Positions 8,603-47,586 of a stretch of 64,000 bases of DNA are shown one piece after another. The notes below the pieces were generated by a model. It ran no database searches and was not told the DNA's origin. It worked only from the letters and a program-made list of their open reading frames with translations. How positions within the stretch are numbered: the stretch's first letter is position 1; every line of letters starts with the position of its first letter. Source of the DNA: Phycisphaerales bacterium (GTDB lineage Bacteria; Planctomycetota; Phycisphaerae; Phycisphaerales; UBA1924); assembly GCA_020831775.1 (NCBI GenBank), contig JAFIFZ010000053.1, positions 1 to 64,000 of the forward strand, in the 5' to 3' direction. The position numbers were made by a program, and so were the translations under genes.

Positions 8603-8826
8603 CGGCCCTCCCGTTCCGAGCCGCCGGCTCCGCCCGCCACGATCTTGAACAGCCGGATCCCCAGCCCGCGCCGGCGCGTCGCCCGCTTGGACTCGAGGTA
8701 GCGGTCCGCCTCGATCTGGTCCCGGATGGCGTGCTGCTCGACCGACTGCCCGTCCACCGAGGCCTTGGCAGGCCCGGCGGCGTTGTCGGCGATCGCCTGT
8801 TCAAGATTGGGGGTGGGATCCGGCAC
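8596..8826 (-). CDS. Small head-completion-like protein upstream of portal
   Basis: A 76-residue protein starting at a GTG (8826) with GAGG before it. The core QAIADNAAGPAKASVDGQSV-EQHAIRDQIEADRYLES is the pattern of small proteins found directly before lambda-type portal genes in prophages; the place is that of lambda gpW. Residues 55-68 end in RLFKIVAGG. It overlaps the portal start by 7 bases. I infer a head-tail completion role from position only. Confidence 0.62.
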   Translation of the reverse strand: MPDPTPNLEQAIADNAAGPAKASVDGQSVEQHAIRDQIEADRYLESKRATRRRGLGIRLFKIVAGGAGGSEREGRC

Positions 8827-8864
8827 GGCAACCTCGCGAGCCCCCGCACCTCGCGGAGGCCTCT

Positions 8865-8880
8865 CGGGTCACCTATGCCG
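8865..8880 (-). promoter_or_regulatory. Repeated phage motif, site 1 (before the head-gene operon)
   Basis: On the minus strand the site reads CGGCATAGGTGACCCG. Near-identical copies stand at 19204-19219, 26236-26252 and 43944-43960, each ahead of a minus-strand operon and in no other orientation that I found. Here it lies 39 bases before the GTG at 8826 of the gpW-like/portal/capsid operon. I read it as a promoter core or activator site, possibly used by the phage sigma-like factor encoded at 26273-26872. Confidence 0.5.
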
Positions 8881-8994
8881 TTCAGGGGCCGATTGCACGA
8901 GTTGGCAGGCCAAGCGTGCCGGGACCGGCAGCAGGAGGTCAGAGCGTTCTCGGGCCTCAGGGCCGATTCTCGGCCGCTTTTGTGGTGCCAATTC

Positions 8995-9040
8995 TGTCGC
9001 TTTAGGGGCAAATAGACGATATAGTTGCCAGTATTGGCAC
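8995..9040 (+). promoter_or_regulatory. Promoter and operator of hipBA
   Basis: A TGTCGC (8995-9000) and TATAGT (9020-9025) pair with 19 bases between could be the promoter. Directly after the -10 stands a palindrome TGCCA-GTAT-TGGCA (9026-9039), and a half-site GTGCCAA lies at about 8986. HipB proteins are known to repress their own operon by binding inverted repeats, so this is the likely autoregulatory operator. Confidence 0.45.
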
Positions 9041-9054
9041 TTTACGGACGCCCT

Positions 9055-9423
9055 ATGGACACCCCCAAGTACATGACGGATACCGCGGCTTTAACCGCGA
9101 TCGGCGAACGGATCGCTCAGCATCGCCTCCAGCTCGACTGGACGCAGGCCCAGCTCGCAAAGGAGGCCGGTGTCTCCAAACGCACGGTGATCAGATTGGA
9201 GGGAGGAGAATCCACCCAGCTGACCAACTTGATCAGGATACTCCGCGCGCTCGACCTGCTCGCCAACATCGATGAGCTGCTGCCACCGCCAACCCCGAGT
9301 CCGCTCGAACTGCTGCGATCGAAGGAGAAGCGACGCAAGAGAGCGAGCGGACGCGCAGAGTCCGATGACGAGAAGGGATCACAGGAATGGACTTGGGGCG
9401 ACGAGGAAGGGCCTGACTCATGA
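9055..9423 (+). CDS. hipB: HipB-like antitoxin, XRE-family DNA-binding protein
   Basis: A 122-residue protein from the ATG at 9055. A helix-turn-helix of XRE type covers residues about 17-70 (ERIAQHRLQLDWTQAQLAKE, then VSKRTVIRLEGG and LTNLIRILRALDLL). The C-terminal third is charged and Pro/Lys-rich and may wrap around the HipA partner. Its stop overlaps the hipA start (ATGA at 9420), the usual arrangement of a type II toxin-antitoxin pair. It should bind and silence HipA and repress the operon through the palindrome just upstream. Confidence 0.85.
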   Translation: MDTPKYMTDTAALTAIGERIAQHRLQLDWTQAQLAKEAGVSKRTVIRLEGGESTQLTNLIRILRALDLLANIDELLPPPTPSPLELLRSKEKRRKRASGRAESDDEKGSQEWTWGDEEGPDS

Positions 9424-10736
9424 CCGTCGCCGAAGTCCGTATGTGGGGGCGGCAAATCGGTGCGGTCACGGTCGACGGGCCGGGGGGCGTGGCCTCGTTC
9501 CAGTACACCGAACCGTTCCGCCGAAGCGGCATCGAAGTTGCGCCCTTGATGATGCCCCTCTCCTCCAAGGTCTACCGGTTCCCGGGTCTCGCCGAACGAT
9601 CGTTTCACGGCCTGCCCGGGATGCTGGCCGACTCGCTGCCCGACAAGTTCGGCAACGCCGTCATCGACGCTTGGCTGGTCGCACAAGGACGCCTGCCTCA
9701 CGAGATCGATGCGGTCGAACGGCTGTGCTACACCGGCAAGCGGGGCATGGGCGCACTCGAGTTCGAACCCGCCGAGGGGCCACAAGCCGATGAAGCCGTG
9801 CCTCTGGAAGTCGCGGCACTGGTGCGGCTGGCATCGCAAGTGCTCACGGATCGGGAGCGCTTCAGCACGAACTGGGAAGATGGCCAAGAAGCGGCTGCGC
9901 TACGGCAGATCCTGCAAGTCAGCGCTTCCGCGGGTGGTGCGCGAGCAAAGGCACTCATCGCGTGGAGCCCGACCTCCAATGAGATCCTCTCCGGACAGAT
10001 CACGGCTCCCCCGGGTTTCGAGTACTGGCTCCTCAAGTTTGATGGGGTGTCGAACAATCGCGACAAAGAGCTTGCCGACCCGCAGGGATACGGCGCGATC
10101 GAGTACGCATACTCGCTGATGGCACGAGCCGCGGGTATCCGTATGGCCGACTGTCGCCTGCTCGAGGAGAACGGCCGCCGACACTTCATGACCCGCCGCT
10201 TCGATCGGACAAAGAGCGGCGACAAAATCCACATGCAATCGCTCGGGGCACTGGGGCACTTCGACTTCAACGACGCGGGGTCGCATTCCTACGAGCAGGC
10301 GATCATGGTCATCCGGCGACTTGGACTCTCCATGGACGACATCGAGGAGCAGTTCAGGCGCATGGCCTTCAACATCGTGGCTCGCAATCAGGACGACCAC
10401 GTCAAGAACATCGCGTTCTTGATGGACAAGAAAGGCACATGGTCACTGTCTCCGGCATTTGACGTGTCCTACAGCTACAACCCTTCAGGGGCATGGACTT
10501 CCACCCATCAGATGTCGATGAACCGCAAACGCGACGGATTTACGCGGGCTGACTTCCGCGCGTTCGCAGAAACCGCCGCGATGAAGCGGGGACGGTCTGA
10601 CGCGATCGTCGACGAGGTACTCGACGCAGTAAACCGATGGAAAGAATTTGCGGCTGAAGCCGATGTTGACCCCGACCAGACAGAGCAGATCGCTGCTGCC
10701 CATCGGCTGCGCATCGCCGCTGAAGTGGATGGATGA
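9420..10736 (+). CDS. hipA: HipA-like serine/threonine kinase toxin
   Basis: A 438-residue protein of full family length. N-terminal subdomain: YRFPGLAERSFHGLPGMLADSLPDKFGN (about 58-82). The Gly-rich nucleotide loop SASAGGARAKA is at about 168-178. The catalytic part NIVARNQDDHVKNIAFLMD is at about 318-336, with the metal-binding LSPAFDVSYSYNP motif after it. HipA kinases phosphorylate glutamyl-tRNA synthetase or related targets and stop growth; target specificity cannot be read here. All key residues (the D-D-H-x-K-N segment and the D of AFDV) are present, so it looks active. It is cargo inserted between the portal and terminase blocks. Confidence 0.88.
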   Translation: MTVAEVRMWGRQIGAVTVDGPGGVASFQYTEPFRRSGIEVAPLMMPLSSKVYRFPGLAERSFHGLPGMLADSLPDKFGNAVIDAWLVAQGRLPHEIDAVERLCYTGKRGMGALEFEPAEGPQADEAVPLEVAALVRLASQVLTDRERFSTNWEDGQEAAALRQILQVSASAGGARAKALIAWSPTSNEILSGQITAPPGFEYWLLKFDGVSNNRDKELADPQGYGAIEYAYSLMARAAGIRMADCRLLEENGRRHFMTRRFDRTKSGDKIHMQSLGALGHFDFNDAGSHSYEQAIMVIRRLGLSMDDIEEQFRRMAFNIVARNQDDHVKNIAFLMDKKGTWSLSPAFDVSYSYNPSGAWTSTHQMSMNRKRDGFTRADFRAFAETAAMKRGRSDAIVDEVLDAVNRWKEFAAEADVDPDQTEQIAAAHRLRIAAEVDG

Positions 10737-41104: not shown

Positions 41105-41512
41105 TTACATGATCGATGTGGGCAGAGCGCTATTCGTGATGTTCGCCCATTGTCGCCGCTGCCTTGGCCAAGCCGCCGTAGTCACGATGTCCCTCAAATC
41201 CCTCTCCGTCACCGGATCCCGCCCCTCCGTCACCGGCGGCAGGAACAGGATCTCCTCCTGGATGTCCGGGGCCAGATGCAGCAGGTTCATGATCTGCGTC
41301 ATCCGCGGCTGGGTCACGCGGGCCAGAGCCGCCAGGTCGGTCTGGCTGCCCACGACGCCGTCCTGAAGCATCTTGTCGAACTTGATCGCCAGAGCCAGGA
41401 GCCGGGCGACTCGGGGCACTCGTCCGGGCGGCGTGGCCGGGGCCGGCCCGGTGACGATCCGCCGCCGGGTTTCGCGGACGCGGAAGTGGATGGGTCGGGT
41501 GACGGTGGTCAT
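41105..41512 (-). CDS. Small HTH protein next to the serine recombinase
   Basis: A 135-residue protein. PPGRVPRVARLLALAIKFDK and LAALARVTQPRMTQIMNLLHLAPDIQEEIL, then the FLPPVTEGRDPVTERDLRDI tail are typical of a family always found beside planctomycete serine recombinases. The middle is a helix-turn-helix. Its ATG overlaps the recombinase stop (ATGA), so it is co-made. A recombination directionality factor is one possibility, not shown. Confidence 0.72.
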   Translation of the reverse strand: MTTVTRPIHFRVRETRRRIVTGPAPATPPGRVPRVARLLALAIKFDKMLQDGVVGSQTDLAALARVTQPRMTQIMNLLHLAPDIQEEILFLPPVTEGRDPVTERDLRDIVTTAAWPRQRRQWANITNSALPTSIM

Positions 41513-43104
41513 GCCGCTTCCTCCTTGATGCGGTCGAGGAACGCCCGGATGCTCGTCGGCCGGAATGTCACGCTCACGCTCGAATTCACGGCGTCGTACT
41601 CCACGGCCGAGATCAGCAGCCGGATCAGCCGTGCCTGCTCACGCGGGATCAGGTTCTCCCACACGGGGTCGAAGCCCCGGAGAGCCACCTCCGCCTGGGC
41701 TTGGGTGATCGTCTCCGCGTCGAGCTCGGCGATCCGCTTCTCGACCTCGGGCAGCCGCCTGTCGCCCGTGGTGATCTGTTCGTGCAACTCGGCGATCCGC
41801 CGGGTAACGTCTGCATCCGCGAGCCCGCCCGCCGCGAGGGTTTGGAGCTCGCGGTGGCACCGGTCCAGGGTCCGCTTCACATCCGACCGCTCGGTGACCA
41901 GACCCTCGCGCTCCTCGGCGATCGTTGCGTGCGCGTCCGCCAGGACCTGCTTGAGCAGGGCGGGGTCAGACCCCAGCCCGCGGATCTCGTCAACGACCAC
42001 CCGCTCGATCTCCGCCGCGGGGAGCGACCGTGACGGGCACTCGGCGGCCCCGTTCTTGATGGCGTGCGTACACCGGTAGTAGCGGTAGAACCGCGGCCCG
42101 CCCTTCTTGTCCTTCGTGAAGGTGTGCGTTAGCGCGTAGCCGCACGACTTGCAGGTGATGAGCCCGCGAAGCAGGGCACCGTACTTGTTGCGGACCTCGA
42201 AGCCCCCGGTCCGGCCGTTGTACCGCAGCAGCTTCTGGACCCGCTCGAAGATCTCCGGATCCACGATGGCCTCATGCACGCCGTCGTAGATTTCGCCCTT
42301 GTGGGTGATCTTCCCGATGTAGACCGGGTTTATGAGGTGGTTGTGCAGCGTGGCTTTGTTGAAGGGCTTCCCGCCGATGACCTTGCCGGCCTTCTTCGTC
42401 ACCCGCTTCTTGTTGGTCCACTCGCGGTGGCGCAGCTCGCGGACGACCGGCAGCAGCGACTGCTTCTCCAGGTACAGATCGAACAGAGCACGGACCCGCA
42501 CGGCCTCGCGGGCGTTGACCACCAGCCGCGGGCTCGGCCCGGACCGGTCCACGTCGTAGCCCAGCACCGGCACGCCGCCGGCCCACTTGCCCTTGCGTTT
42601 CTGGGCCGCGATCTTGTCCCGGATCCGCTCGCCGATGATCTCCCGCTCGAACTGCGCGAACGAGAGCAGGATGTTCAGGGTTAGGCGACCCATCGAGCTC
42701 GTCGTGTTGAACTGCTGCGTCACCGAGACGAACGACACGCCTTTGCGGTCGAACGCCTCCATGATCTTGGCGAAGTCCATCAGCGAGCGGCTGAGCCGGT
42801 CGACCTTGTAGACCACCACGCAGTCGATCTTGCCCGCCTCGATATCGCGGAGCAGGTGCTCGAGCGCCGGCCGCTCCATGCTCCCTCCGGAGAAGCCGCC
42901 GTCGTCGTACCGGTCGGGCAGGCAGACCCACCCCTCGGTCTTCTGGCTGGCGATGAACGCTTCGGCGCTCTCGCGCTGGGCGTCGAGCGAATTGAACTCC
43001 TGGTCGAGCCCCTCGTCGCTGGACTTGCGGGTGTACACCGCACACCGCATACGGCTGCCCGGGGCCGGGGCCTCCTTCGGCCTATCGCGCTTGCGTACCT
43101 TCAT
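41509..43104 (-). CDS. Large serine recombinase (integrase)
   Basis: A 531-residue protein from the ATG at 43104. MRCAVYTRKSSDEGLDQEFN (catalytic Ser28), QRESAEAFIASQKTEGW, and VVYKVDRLSRSLMDFAKI are the resolvase-type catalytic domain; AGGVPVLGYDVDRSG opens the recombinase domain; LLRGLITCKSCGYALTH begins the zinc ribbon. A C-terminal coiled coil (about 395-475) follows, as in phiC31-like integrases. It should integrate and excise the element at the initiator tRNA. The start overlaps the DUF2924 gene stop (ATGA). Confidence 0.9.
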   Translation of the reverse strand: MKVRKRDRPKEAPAPGSRMRCAVYTRKSSDEGLDQEFNSLDAQRESAEAFIASQKTEGWVCLPDRYDDGGFSGGSMERPALEHLLRDIEAGKIDCVVVYKVDRLSRSLMDFAKIMEAFDRKGVSFVSVTQQFNTTSSMGRLTLNILLSFAQFEREIIGERIRDKIAAQKRKGKWAGGVPVLGYDVDRSGPSPRLVVNAREAVRVRALFDLYLEKQSLLPVVRELRHREWTNKKRVTKKAGKVIGGKPFNKATLHNHLINPVYIGKITHKGEIYDGVHEAIVDPEIFERVQKLLRYNGRTGGFEVRNKYGALLRGLITCKSCGYALTHTFTKDKKGGPRFYRYYRCTHAIKNGAAECPSRSLPAAEIERVVVDEIRGLGSDPALLKQVLADAHATIAEEREGLVTERSDVKRTLDRCHRELQTLAAGGLADADVTRRIAELHEQITTGDRRLPEVEKRIAELDAETITQAQAEVALRGFDPVWENLIPREQARLIRLLISAVEYDAVNSSVSVTFRPTSIRAFLDRIKEEAA

Positions 43105-43628
43105 TGCGTGCTCCTGCTCTGGCCGAGCCGGAAGAAGCGGAAGCCGTTGATGTGGCTCCCGGTGACGTGCTTGGCCACGCCGCTGAGCGTCTTGAACCGC
43201 TCGCCGTCGCACTCGAAGCCTTTGCCGTAGGGCAGAACCAACACCCGGATGGTCCGGCCCTGATACTCGCGGACGATCGCCGAGCCGGGGGCGGGCAGGC
43301 GCGGGTCGCGCTCCGCCTCCGGATCGAGACCCCGCGTCACCGTGGACGACCGTCCGGTCTGCGGCGGCGTCACGAGCGTCTTCGGGGCCATCACCCGCAC
43401 CTCGGCGTCGTCGGCAAGCTCTGCAGCACGCTTCCGCGCCCGCTCGCTCAGGTCTCCCTCAGCGTTGGCCTGGAGCCGCCAGGCGATCTTGCGGATGAGG
43501 TACGTCCGGTGTCGCGTCCGGGTCTGGTAGCCGTGCAGCTCGACGAACCTCTCCACGAGCTCGTTGGTGGACATGCCTTTCAGCGAATCGATCTCGACTT
43601 CGATCCGCGTCGCCGTTGCATGCTTCAT
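43101..43628 (-). CDS. DUF2924 protein
   Basis: A 175-residue protein from the ATG at 43628, with AGGAGG before it. LKGMSTNELVERFVELHGYQ, TRTRHRTYLIRKIAWRLQANAEG is the conserved DUF2924 N-part; the C-part REYQGRTIRVLVLPYGKGFECD, KTLSGVAKHVTGSHINGFRFF is the second half. It always stands before a large serine recombinase and is thought to help it, maybe by binding DNA. Stop overlaps the recombinase ATG. Confidence 0.85.
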   Translation of the reverse strand: MKHATATRIEVEIDSLKGMSTNELVERFVELHGYQTRTRHRTYLIRKIAWRLQANAEGDLSERARKRAAELADDAEVRVMAPKTLVTPPQTGRSSTVTRGLDPEAERDPRLPAPGSAIVREYQGRTIRVLVLPYGKGFECDGERFKTLSGVAKHVTGSHINGFRFFRLGQSRSTQ

Positions 43629-43654
43629 GCGGCCTCCTGTGGCTGGTGTCTCCA

Positions 43655-43903
43655 TCACTCGCACCCTTCACCCGCCGGTCGGGGTTTGGATCGCGTCGCC
43701 ACAGTGAGGCTCGGATCGCTCGGAAGTTCAAGGCATGTCGCCGCACCTTCTTCAACTTCGCGAGATGCCCGCGAAGCGGCGTCGCGTTCGATGCGAACCG
43801 CACGCACCAGGCCTCTGGCGAGGATGCGCGAGATCTCGTCCCGCCGTTCTTCGGATGTCATCGCTTCGGAGTTGCGCCGGCTGTCGTCGATCGCTCGTGG
43901 CAT
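43655..43903 (-). CDS. Small protein at the start of the integration operon
   Basis: An 82-residue protein from the ATG at 43903 with GGAG 8 bases before. MTSEERRDEISRILARGLVR is the recognisable core of a small family that precedes DUF2924 genes; the rest is Arg/Pro/Ser-rich. Motif site 4 lies 41 bases upstream. Unknown function. Confidence 0.6.
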   Translation of the reverse strand: MPRAIDDSRRNSEAMTSEERRDEISRILARGLVRAVRIERDAASRASREVEEGAATCLELPSDPSLTVATRSKPRPAGEGCE

Positions 43904-45598: not shown

Positions 45599-46263
45599 GT
45601 TCGACGAGCGTGTTCAAGCTGGATGTCCCCGGGCACTCCGCAAAGATCGAGGTGCTCTCGATCGGCCCGGACAATGCGACGGGTGTGCTGATCGGCGTAC
45701 ACGGGCGGGGCGGGCGCGCAGAAGACTTCGCGTCGGTCGCGACGCGGGTCGTGCCGGACGGTGTGCGCGTGCTGCTCCCGCAGGCCCCGGGGCAGACCTG
45801 GTATCCCAAATCGTTCATGGCCTCCACTTCTGAGAACCAGCCGGATCTCGACCGGGCGCTTGCGACGCTCGATGCGTTGGCCGAGAAGGTCCGCGCCTCC
45901 GGCGTCAGCAACGAGCGCATCGGCTGGATCGGGTTCTCGCAGGGCGCCTGCCTGACGCTGGAACACCTCGCCCGCAACCCCGCTCGATACGCGGGCGTCG
46001 TCGGCGTCTGCGGCGGCCTCATCGGCCCGGAAGGAACGGCCTTCGATCACCAGGGCGACACGGAGGGCACGCCGGTCTATCTCGGCGGGGTCGATCCGGA
46101 CCCGCACGTGGCGTGGTCGCGGATTGAGGCGACAGCGGGTGTCTTTGAAAGACTCGGGGCGAGGGTCACCTTGGAGCGGACGCCCGGCGCGCCGCACACG
46201 GTCCTCCCCCTCCACGCCGATCGGGCGGCGTCGATCCTCGGGTCCTTGGGAGACGCCTCGTGA
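45595..46263 (+). CDS. mhqD: MhqD-like carboxylesterase/phospholipase
   Basis: A 222-residue protein from a GTG that overlaps the dioxygenase stop. GVLIGVHGRGGRAEDFASVA holds the oxyanion loop, IGWIGFSQGACLTLEHLARN the nucleophile elbow G-x-S-x-G, VYLGGVDPDPHVAW the Asp and PGAPHTVLPLHA the His of the alpha/beta hydrolase triad. It belongs to the predicted esterase group with MhqD/YpfH. Together with the upstream dioxygenase it should process quinone-derived products. Confidence 0.82.
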   Translation: MSSTSVFKLDVPGHSAKIEVLSIGPDNATGVLIGVHGRGGRAEDFASVATRVVPDGVRVLLPQAPGQTWYPKSFMASTSENQPDLDRALATLDALAEKVRASGVSNERIGWIGFSQGACLTLEHLARNPARYAGVVGVCGGLIGPEGTAFDHQGDTEGTPVYLGGVDPDPHVAWSRIEATAGVFERLGARVTLERTPGAPHTVLPLHADRAASILGSLGDAS

Positions 46264-46622
46264 CCGTGTTCAGGCTGACGAAGATCGTGGAGGACGACCG
46301 GGGGGTCTCGGCGTTCGAGGACGCCGTGGTCCCGCTGACCGACTCAGGACCGATCGGCTCCCTCTCGGAGCTGATGCTGGCCGAGGGGGCGATTCTCCGG
46401 CTCTCCCCCGGGCCGTTCGATCACGACTGGCACCCGGCGCCGGCCCGCCAACTCCTCGTGCTGCTCGACGGCGAGATCGAGATCGAGGTCGGCACCGGAG
46501 AACGGCGCAGGTTCGGGGGCGGAGATGTGGTGCTGGCCGAGGACACCGAGGGGCGGGGCCACCGGACCGTGACGCTGAGCGAGGGTCCGCGGCGGTCGCT
46601 GTTTGTTCCGCTGGGCCTCTGA
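46260..46622 (+). CDS. Cupin-domain protein
   Basis: A 120-residue protein starting at a GTG that overlaps the esterase stop. One cupin: DHDWHPAPARQLLVLLDGEI, then EIEVGTGERRRFGGGDVVLA, EDTEGRGHRTVTL. It has the G-D-x(4)-P-x-G replacement GGGDVVLAEDTEGRGH, with His residues for a metal. Third gene of the operon, likely part of the same detoxification path. Confidence 0.8.
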   Translation: MTVFRLTKIVEDDRGVSAFEDAVVPLTDSGPIGSLSELMLAEGAILRLSPGPFDHDWHPAPARQLLVLLDGEIEIEVGTGERRRFGGGDVVLAEDTEGRGHRTVTLSEGPRRSLFVPLGL

Positions 46623-46694: not shown

Positions 46695-46734
46695 TTGACG
46701 CGTGCCACGCCAGTAATGATAATGCGATATCATT
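46695..46734 (+). promoter_or_regulatory. Promoter with Fur/Zur-like palindrome
   Basis: TTGACG (46695-46700), exactly 17 bases, GATAAT (46718-46723). The palindrome AATGATA-ATGCGA-TATCATT (46715-46734) covers the -10, and a further GCATCA half follows. This is the look of a Fur-family binding site and would make the PEP-CTERM gene iron- or zinc-regulated. Confidence 0.6.
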
Positions 46735-46805
46735 CGCATCACTGCCCCGCGTCCGTCTGCGGGGAGGCAGAGAGAGCAAGCAGAGAGTAAGTAAGGAAGA
46801 CCACC

Positions 46806-47531
46806 ATGAACCGGACAATCTCCACCGTTGCCGCCGCGGGCCTCCTCGCCTTCGCCGGATCCGCCCACGCCGTGATCAACACCCACATCGGGATTGATGT
46901 CGTCGACGGCCAGCTCTCGACCCAGGGCTGGGTCGGCGGGACCGGCTACACCGGCGAGCTCCGCGTCTTCGTGCAGACGCTCGACCCGACGCTCTTCTTC
47001 AACGACGCCCCAGGCACCAACAGCCCCGGCGGCACCTTCGCCACCCCCGGCGCCATCGGCTTCAACTTCCTCGACGCCCTGCACGTCTGGAACCCGGGCA
47101 CAGAGCAGTTCGATGCCGCGGCCGAGAGCTTCACCATCGCCTTCGGCCTGACACAGTCGGCGACGACCGACACGGGCTTTGTCCCGGGCTTTGCGACAGC
47201 GGTCCGCGACGAGAACAGCCACCCGACCAACCAGGCCCAGTGGGGCCGCCACCACACCCACCACGACTTCATCCTCAACGGCGCGGGCGGGGCCGATCCC
47301 GCTGCCGGGATCTACATGCTCAACCTCGAACTGTACTACGAGGCGGGCGCCGGCAACACGACCACCTACGCCAACTCCGACCCGTTCTGGATGCTCTTCG
47401 GCCTGAACGCCTCGCCCGCCGAGCTCGAGACTGTTCGCGACTGGGTGCAGATCAACGTGGTCCCCGCACCGGGCGCGATGGCGCTCCTGGCCGGTGCCGG
47501 CCTGCTCGGCCTGCGTCGTCGGCGCGCCTGA
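46806..47531 (+). CDS. Exported PEP-CTERM protein with His cluster
   Basis: A 241-residue protein. An N-terminal signal peptide (MNRTISTVAAAGLLAFAGSA, cleavage after AHA at about 22) and a C-terminal VPAPGAMALLAGAGLLGLRR tripartite signal (P-A-P, hydrophobic helix, Arg cluster) mark a PEP-CTERM protein for exosortase sorting. The body holds GRHHTHHDFILNGAGGADPA, a His cluster that could bind a metal. It stands alone behind the Fur-like promoter, with a terminator after. No enzyme fold is seen. Confidence 0.82.
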   Translation: MNRTISTVAAAGLLAFAGSAHAVINTHIGIDVVDGQLSTQGWVGGTGYTGELRVFVQTLDPTLFFNDAPGTNSPGGTFATPGAIGFNFLDALHVWNPGTEQFDAAAESFTIAFGLTQSATTDTGFVPGFATAVRDENSHPTNQAQWGRHHTHHDFILNGAGGADPAAGIYMLNLELYYEAGAGNTTTYANSDPFWMLFGLNASPAELETVRDWVQINVVPAPGAMALLAGAGLLGLRRRRA

Positions 47532-47564
47532 GACCGACGCGACAAAGAGAAAATCCCGTTCACG

Positions 47565-47586
47565 CCCCGCTCCGGCGGGGTTTTTT
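47565..47586 (+). terminator. Rho-independent terminator
   Basis: CCCCGC (47565-47570) / GCGGGG (47575-47580) with TTTTTT. It lies between the PEP-CTERM gene and the convergent transporter gene. Confidence 0.8.

Follow-up and report, generated by a model that had tools for sequence, protein, structure and literature searches.

Zinc is imported with high affinity across the inner membrane by ZnuABC, which has a binding protein of its own. Zinc gathering outside the cell envelope is little known, and one precedent was met: ZepA (All3515) of Anabaena sp. PCC 7120, described in 2024 as a Zur-repressed, zinc-handling PEP-CTERM exoprotein that supplies zinc to the cell (PMC10957091). According to the same report, two overlapping Zur sites lie over the -10 boxes of zepA, and members of the PVC superphylum have ZepA homologues encoded close to a Fur-family gene (PMC10957091). 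ZrgABCDE of Vibrio is likewise described as a Zur-repressed zinc system (PMC9817125).

The gene analysed here lies in the window, a 64,000-nt stretch of DNA from a Phycisphaerales bacterium (contig JAFIFZ010000053.1), and its features are collected in Table 1. Compared by published description, the system looks like an analogue of ZepA. The original prediction had held that a metal-collecting surface protein would be new among PEP-CTERM proteins; with the publication of ZepA in 2024 (PMC10957091) this is outdated, and the idea is not new in kind, given the cyanobacterial precedent. As far as the ZepA report describes them, ZepA and the window protein have in common export, a PEP-CTERM-type tail, a histidine site and an Ig-like beta-sandwich (predicted here), and both genes have two overlapping Zur-type sites over the -10, those of the window gene being assigned by sequence alone. 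There are also differences from that description. ZepA is longer (a 915-bp ORF) and has a second domain, B; its motif is H-X2-9-H-F/Y-H, which the H-X9-HHTHH of the window protein does not match, and its tail reads VPEP, whereas that of the window protein reads VPAPG. The reported PVC zepA neighbourhoods include a Fur-family gene, whereas phmmer searches with all three Fur paralogues of the window's genome did not detect one among the ORFs of the 41 family loci defined below. No ZepA-named model was among the NCBIfam matches of the window protein or of the 20 members in set A1.

Table 1. Coordinates of the window gene, its control region and its terminator-like element (window numbering)
Feature	Position	Strand	Remarks
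Sigma-70-type promoter	46695..46723	+	TTGACG 46695-46700, 17-nt spacer, GATAAT 46718-46723
Candidate Zur-type operator A, TGATAATGCGATATCA (7-2-7)	46717..46732	.	2 mismatches to box pattern; 20.75 bits
Candidate Zur-type operator B, TGCGATATCATTCGCA	46723..46738	.	6-bp offset, overlaps A; 2 mismatches; 13.9 bits
Exported protein, family without name, 241 aa	46806..47531	+	Signal-peptide-like N-terminus (by eye), VPAPG sorting-type tail
HHTHH codons, residues 149-153	47250..47264	+	
C-terminal sorting-like segment, VVPAPGAMALLAGAGLLGLRRRRA	47457..47528	+	TIGR02595 12.9 bits
Intrinsic-terminator-like stem-loop with T run	47564..47581	+	3' of window gene; 0.5 expected in shuffles

No family in Pfam or NCBIfam covers the window protein, which gave weak matches to sorting-tail models only. 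Searches of its own genome and those of relatives gave matches at E <=0.001 in 73 of 101 genomes, many of the weaker ones spanning the tail only. Forty regions around the better matches, together with the window, make up the 41 loci used here, which contain 64 family ORFs, 63 of them aligned (alignment A2). A phylum-wide profile search, with matches in 21 of 246 genomes, was inflated by dockerin tails, and no count of true members was therefore taken from it. Two family genes occur together in 23 of the 41 loci, and as a rule one member of the pair has a dockerin-type tail and the other a VPxPG...RRRR tail.

Upstream of the window gene, TTGACG-17-GATAAT gives 10 of 12 promoter matches and is the sole such promoter in 1.2 kb, against a mean of 0.0 (sd 0.2) in 50 shuffles; the sister species G001 also has TTGACG. 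Both the strong promoter and the palindrome over its -10 that had been proposed from the sequence were recovered, the latter as two perfect inverted repeats overlapping GATAAT, AATGATA-N6-TATCATT (46715-46734) and ATGCGA-N6-TCGCAT (46722-46739). ATGATAN6TATCAT has a single exact occurrence in the 3.55-Mb genome, at this promoter. A scan of the 41 loci for the half-site TG[AC][GT]AAT revealed a class of 16-bp boxes with a 2-bp spacer (7-2-7, consensus TGAGAATNNATTCTCA), of which operators A and B are imperfect copies; the two interlock and span the -10 together with the positions immediately downstream. A matrix built on 13 sites that were chosen, after the pattern had been seen, in relatives of other genera ranked operators A and B first and second in the window, followed by a third-best site at 7.0 bits. 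Classic 7-1-7 Fur/Zur boxes (TGATAATNATTATCA, up to three mismatches) were also sought in the window and none was found, the 16-bp boxes with spacer 2 being those that fit. Unsupervised motif finding in 480-nt regions returned GC-rich motifs resembling coding signal, which were discarded.

That the palindrome came to lie over the strong promoter by chance is very improbable. When 2000 first-order-Markov sequences were simulated from the 150 nt upstream, none reached the score of operator A, although 2 of 200 simulated 64-kb sequences did reach it (mean best score 12.5, sd 2.8, so that the score of operator B alone is unremarkable at that length). Similarly, both boxes are two bases off the pattern, a level at which the genome holds 22 sites as against 9 for the reversed control, but all 29 nucleotides from 46710 to 46738, which include both boxes, are identical in G001, next to diverged DNA: only 24 of 72 columns are identical between the upstream gene and the -35, while the leader downstream of the boxes is also well kept (57 of 67). 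Boxes of the same class also stand before other operons of the family, an example being TGATAATGCATTCTCA in G015 and G019.

The upstream neighbour (46260-46622) is cupin-like, under the Pfam cut-off, and the downstream neighbour encodes a convergent AbgT-type transporter; given these neighbours and the terminator-like stem after it, the window gene is most likely transcribed alone. Elsewhere in the window, the - strand at 41509-43664 has ORFs that by eye resemble a large serine recombinase (MRCAVYTRKSSDEG...), accompanied by a small ORF.

The box pattern TGMKAATNNATTMKCA was then located genome-wide. The box is rare: a search of 61 genomes yielded 11 exact sites, and the reversed control yielded 0. 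Operons of the family to which the window protein belongs account for five of them (G015, G017, G019, G023 and G031), the genes in G017 and G023 being confirmed as family members by profile (E 2.7e-61 and 2.9e-32). Two precede a znuABC-like operon (G000, the window's genome, and G001), and one, in G084, precedes a CobW gene whose score is higher than the ZigA cut-off (630.5 vs 600 bits). The remaining three lie at other genes (G025, G080 and G084:C259, the last before a lipoyl-synthase-like gene). Within the window's genome the pattern matches exactly at one place only, C81:76149. This copy lies 62 nt before a ZnuA-matching gene (Pfam E 9.6e-53), which is followed by genes for an ABC ATPase and an ABC-3 permease; in G001 the copy is kept ahead of the same znuA-, ATPase- and ABC-3-type genes, as typed by Pfam on the G000 genes. 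The ZnuABC-like operon and the window gene thus have an operator class in common within one genome, which strengthens the observation made at the window gene. Sites with one mismatch in this genome number two before the family operon on C15 and one each on C39 and C28.

Several further observations were made around these sites. The box on C39 (L106:6544, G000:C39:33543) stands just before a gene for an exported-looking DUF4397 protein, a possible further regulon member, and that on C28 (L105:6944, G000:C28:46943) lies between an MFS gene and lepA. On C81, three tandem exported-looking paralogues (L104:7649-10661; NEILQANPGP...), the first with a weak EF-hand match, are divergent from the znuABC-like operon and its box.

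Three Fur-family genes are present in the genome, on C34, C28 and C29. All three paralogues score under the NCBIfam cut-offs, with Fur, PerR or Irr as the best models and Zur best for none; Zur is consequently named here from its targets and not from its own sequence. Only the paralogue at C34 has the pattern HHHHFxCxxC with a further CxxC, as in metal-sensing Fur proteins. Control of the window gene by a putative metal-sensing Fur-family regulator is well supported at the level of sequence. The Fur/Zur-like control of the original prediction therefore holds, by sequence, as far as a Fur-family operator is concerned, and of the two metals zinc, with a Zur-like repressor, is favoured over iron because the box is shared with a ZnuA-type operon and a zigA gene.

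Alternatively, the operator could belong to an iron or manganese regulator of the Fur, Mur or PerR type, the protein serving one of these metals or merely sharing the regulon. TGATAAT-like half-sites resemble Fur boxes, and the scores of the Fur paralogues with the Fur, PerR or Irr models agree with this reading. The putative ZnuA can be read either way: its Pfam match is strong and its best NCBIfam match is AztC (zinc), but it falls under every NCBIfam cut-off, with MntC (manganese) second, so that manganese is still a candidate metal. Against such a regulator, the ZigA zinc chaperone in G084 is encoded behind the same box, and no iron gene was recognised by Pfam among those examined at sites of the window's genome with at most one mismatch. 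We therefore consider an iron or manganese regulator unlikely, and zinc with a Zur-like repressor is the reading followed below.

The box is found at a part of the family loci. From 1000 nt upstream to approximately 100 nt inside the first recognised ORF, a site of at least 15 bits occurs in 14 of 41 loci, with 0 among 680,697 other scored positions; nine of the 14 supplied training sites, and the other five (the window, L035, L036, L037 and L038) all belong to the window's genus. A further perfect site, TGAGAATGAATTCTCA, lies in L053 just outside the scan range, 109 nt inside the first ORF as called. By both the half-site and the matrix scan, 26 of the 41 loci have no 7-2-7 box, so control through the box is either not universal in the family or replaced by another motif. 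When the first six other palindromes of each box-less locus were compared, one was shared, by L043 and L060 only: TGCAAC-N3-GTTGCA, upstream of family operons in both, which perhaps represents a different regulator or a variant of the motif. The second family locus of the window's genome, C15, encodes a pseudopilin-like protein and a dockerin-tailed family member and has two boxes of its own; the window gene and the C15 member lie apart in the genome, and both retain boxes.

Pseudopilin-like genes are the most frequent neighbours of the family. By a home-made profile they are present in 37 of 41 loci, encoding proteins with a type IV pilin or type II pseudopilin start and several shared histidines, and PF07963 was confirmed on the four representatives scanned; the protein of L035:7659-8552, for example, has the histidine motifs GLPHGG, SDHVHxExW and AHGG. 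The partner is absent at the window gene, at its sister locus L036 (G001), and at L039 and L072. At L039 (G015), upstream of 8690-9463 (- strand), a different PEP-CTERM-like protein with an IPSPG tail is encoded between the box and the family gene, in the place of the pseudopilin-like gene. A DUF2946-like gene was assigned by a home-made profile in 18 of 41 loci, and these assignments are weak, as Pfam placed 5 of 10 such genes over the cut-off and 2 below it and gave no match for 3. DUF2946 is also an ambiguous marker of zinc uptake, since in the Zur-regulon table published for Caulobacter two DUF2946 genes are listed as downregulated, one of them adjoining czr and zntA genes (PMC4176598).

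An FtsX/MacB-type permease gene and a DUF3299-type gene adjoin family genes in 4 of 41 loci (L041, L053, L064 and L069), with an ABC ATPase gene in three of these, as called by Pfam on the L041 genes and by BLAST clustering at the other loci. In terms of the published Zrg description (PMC9817125), these are the part types of ZrgB, ZrgE and ZrgC. The link to a Zrg-like system is occasional, since DUF3299, found in 16 of 101 genomes, occurs at a fetched family locus in just two (G011 and G052). The window's genome gave no DUF3299 match, no Pfam match to DUF2796 (ZrgA) at E 1 was found in the 20 A1 members, window protein included, and the window gene stands alone, with a Zrg-type ATPase, FtsX permease and DUF3299 protein all absent among the ORFs listed or scanned beside it.

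The window protein is 97% identical to its counterpart in the sister record REET01000225.1. Its C-terminus consists of VPAPG, a helix (residues 224-240) and RRRRA, that is, a short motif, a hydrophobic stretch and an arginine cluster, in which the Glu of PEP is absent. TIGR02595 (PEP-CTERM) misses its cut-off of 16 bits (Table 1), and the label PEP-CTERM, part of the original prediction, is thus used by resemblance; it is backed by the architecture of the tail and by two exosortase genes (PF09721, over cut-off) in the same genome. Matches to TIGR02595 at E <=1 were obtained for 8 of the 20 A1 members (best 1.8e-6). The predicted histidine stretch is in place as well, in the second half of the protein and in the arrangement H139-X9-H149-H150-T151-H152-H153. 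In the 63 aligned sequences H152 (window numbering) is invariant, while the residue aligned with H150 is His in 49 and Asp in 14, giving a family motif HxH or DxH. Judged from this alignment, the HHTHH run is a local, enlarged form of the conserved motif. An insertion of the type SHPTN...WGRHH is found in 5 of 63 sequences (the window, L036, L039, L040 and L041).

An AlphaFold2 model from the 63-row alignment (pLDDT 90.8, pTM 0.83) consists mostly of strands, with helices at 204-217 and 224-240, and the domain is predicted to be an Ig-like beta-sandwich. Foldseek returned no PDB match at E <=0.001 for the model, and its nearest PDB structures, Ig-like pilins and adhesins, reach VIA-align Z values of 6.9 or less; as such a value may reflect just the common Ig-like arrangement, fold matches were left out of the functional argument. 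A profile search of PDB sequences was set aside, as the dockerin and calcium-binding chains that it matched did so via the tails of some members.

This likeness to pilins and adhesins, low as the Z values are, and the pseudopilin-like genes beside relatives would also suit a structural or adhesive surface protein that is expressed incidentally in zinc limitation, its histidine motif stabilising the fold. We judge such a role quite unlikely, as the HxH/DxH motif includes one histidine that is invariant in all aligned members, and a permease and a DUF3299-type gene, in part with the ATPase, adjoin family genes as in Zrg. The invariant histidine, together with the genes that accompany the family in the operons of relatives, makes a metal-collecting role plausible. 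For the window gene, a role in gathering zinc is the most likely one, since its control site resembles that of a zinc importer and its product is exported and has a conserved histidine motif.

Taken together, we consider it rather probable that the window gene is a member of a zinc-limitation regulon repressed by a Zur-like protein, and that its product binds zinc at the surface and hands it on. When zinc is plentiful, one or two dimers of a Zur-like repressor of the Fur family would bind the interlocked pair of 16-bp operators and, lying over the -10, would block RNA polymerase; when zinc is scarce the repressor would leave, and the protein would be made. The protein would be exported via its signal peptide, after which an exosortase would anchor it to the surface or release it. 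Outside, the Ig-like beta-sandwich may offer the HxH histidine site (H-X9-HHTHH) for binding zinc, which would be handed to the rest of the uptake route, with ZnuABC at the inner membrane. The window protein differs from ZnuABC in its sorting-type tail, and Pfam gave no ZnuA match for it.

More tentatively, the family may be part of a separate zinc-scavenging surface system of the Phycisphaerales. This would comprise a histidine-bearing, type II pseudopilin-like protein and a pair of HxH beta-sandwich proteins, one dockerin-tailed and one exosortase-tailed, often with a DUF2946-like protein, in some cases with a Zrg-like ABC module, and partly under a 7-2-7 Zur box; the window gene would be its exosortase-sorted member, apart from the operon and still in the regulon. 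Literature searches found no report that links PEP-CTERM proteins of the Phycisphaerales with zinc, and none on topic for a pseudopilin in Zur-controlled zinc uptake. From these and from the Pfam and NCBIfam searches, neither the family and its pseudopilin-like partner nor the 7-2-7 operator of the Phycisphaerales appears to have been described. The window protein's family would add to ZepA a second, sequence-distinct family in another lineage and provide a defined operator for searches. The partners encoded in the operons of its relatives (pseudopilin-like, DUF2946-like and Zrg-like ABC proteins) would make a route from surface to importer testable. If true, the collection of zinc at the cell surface by a pilin-like protein would amount to a new principle.
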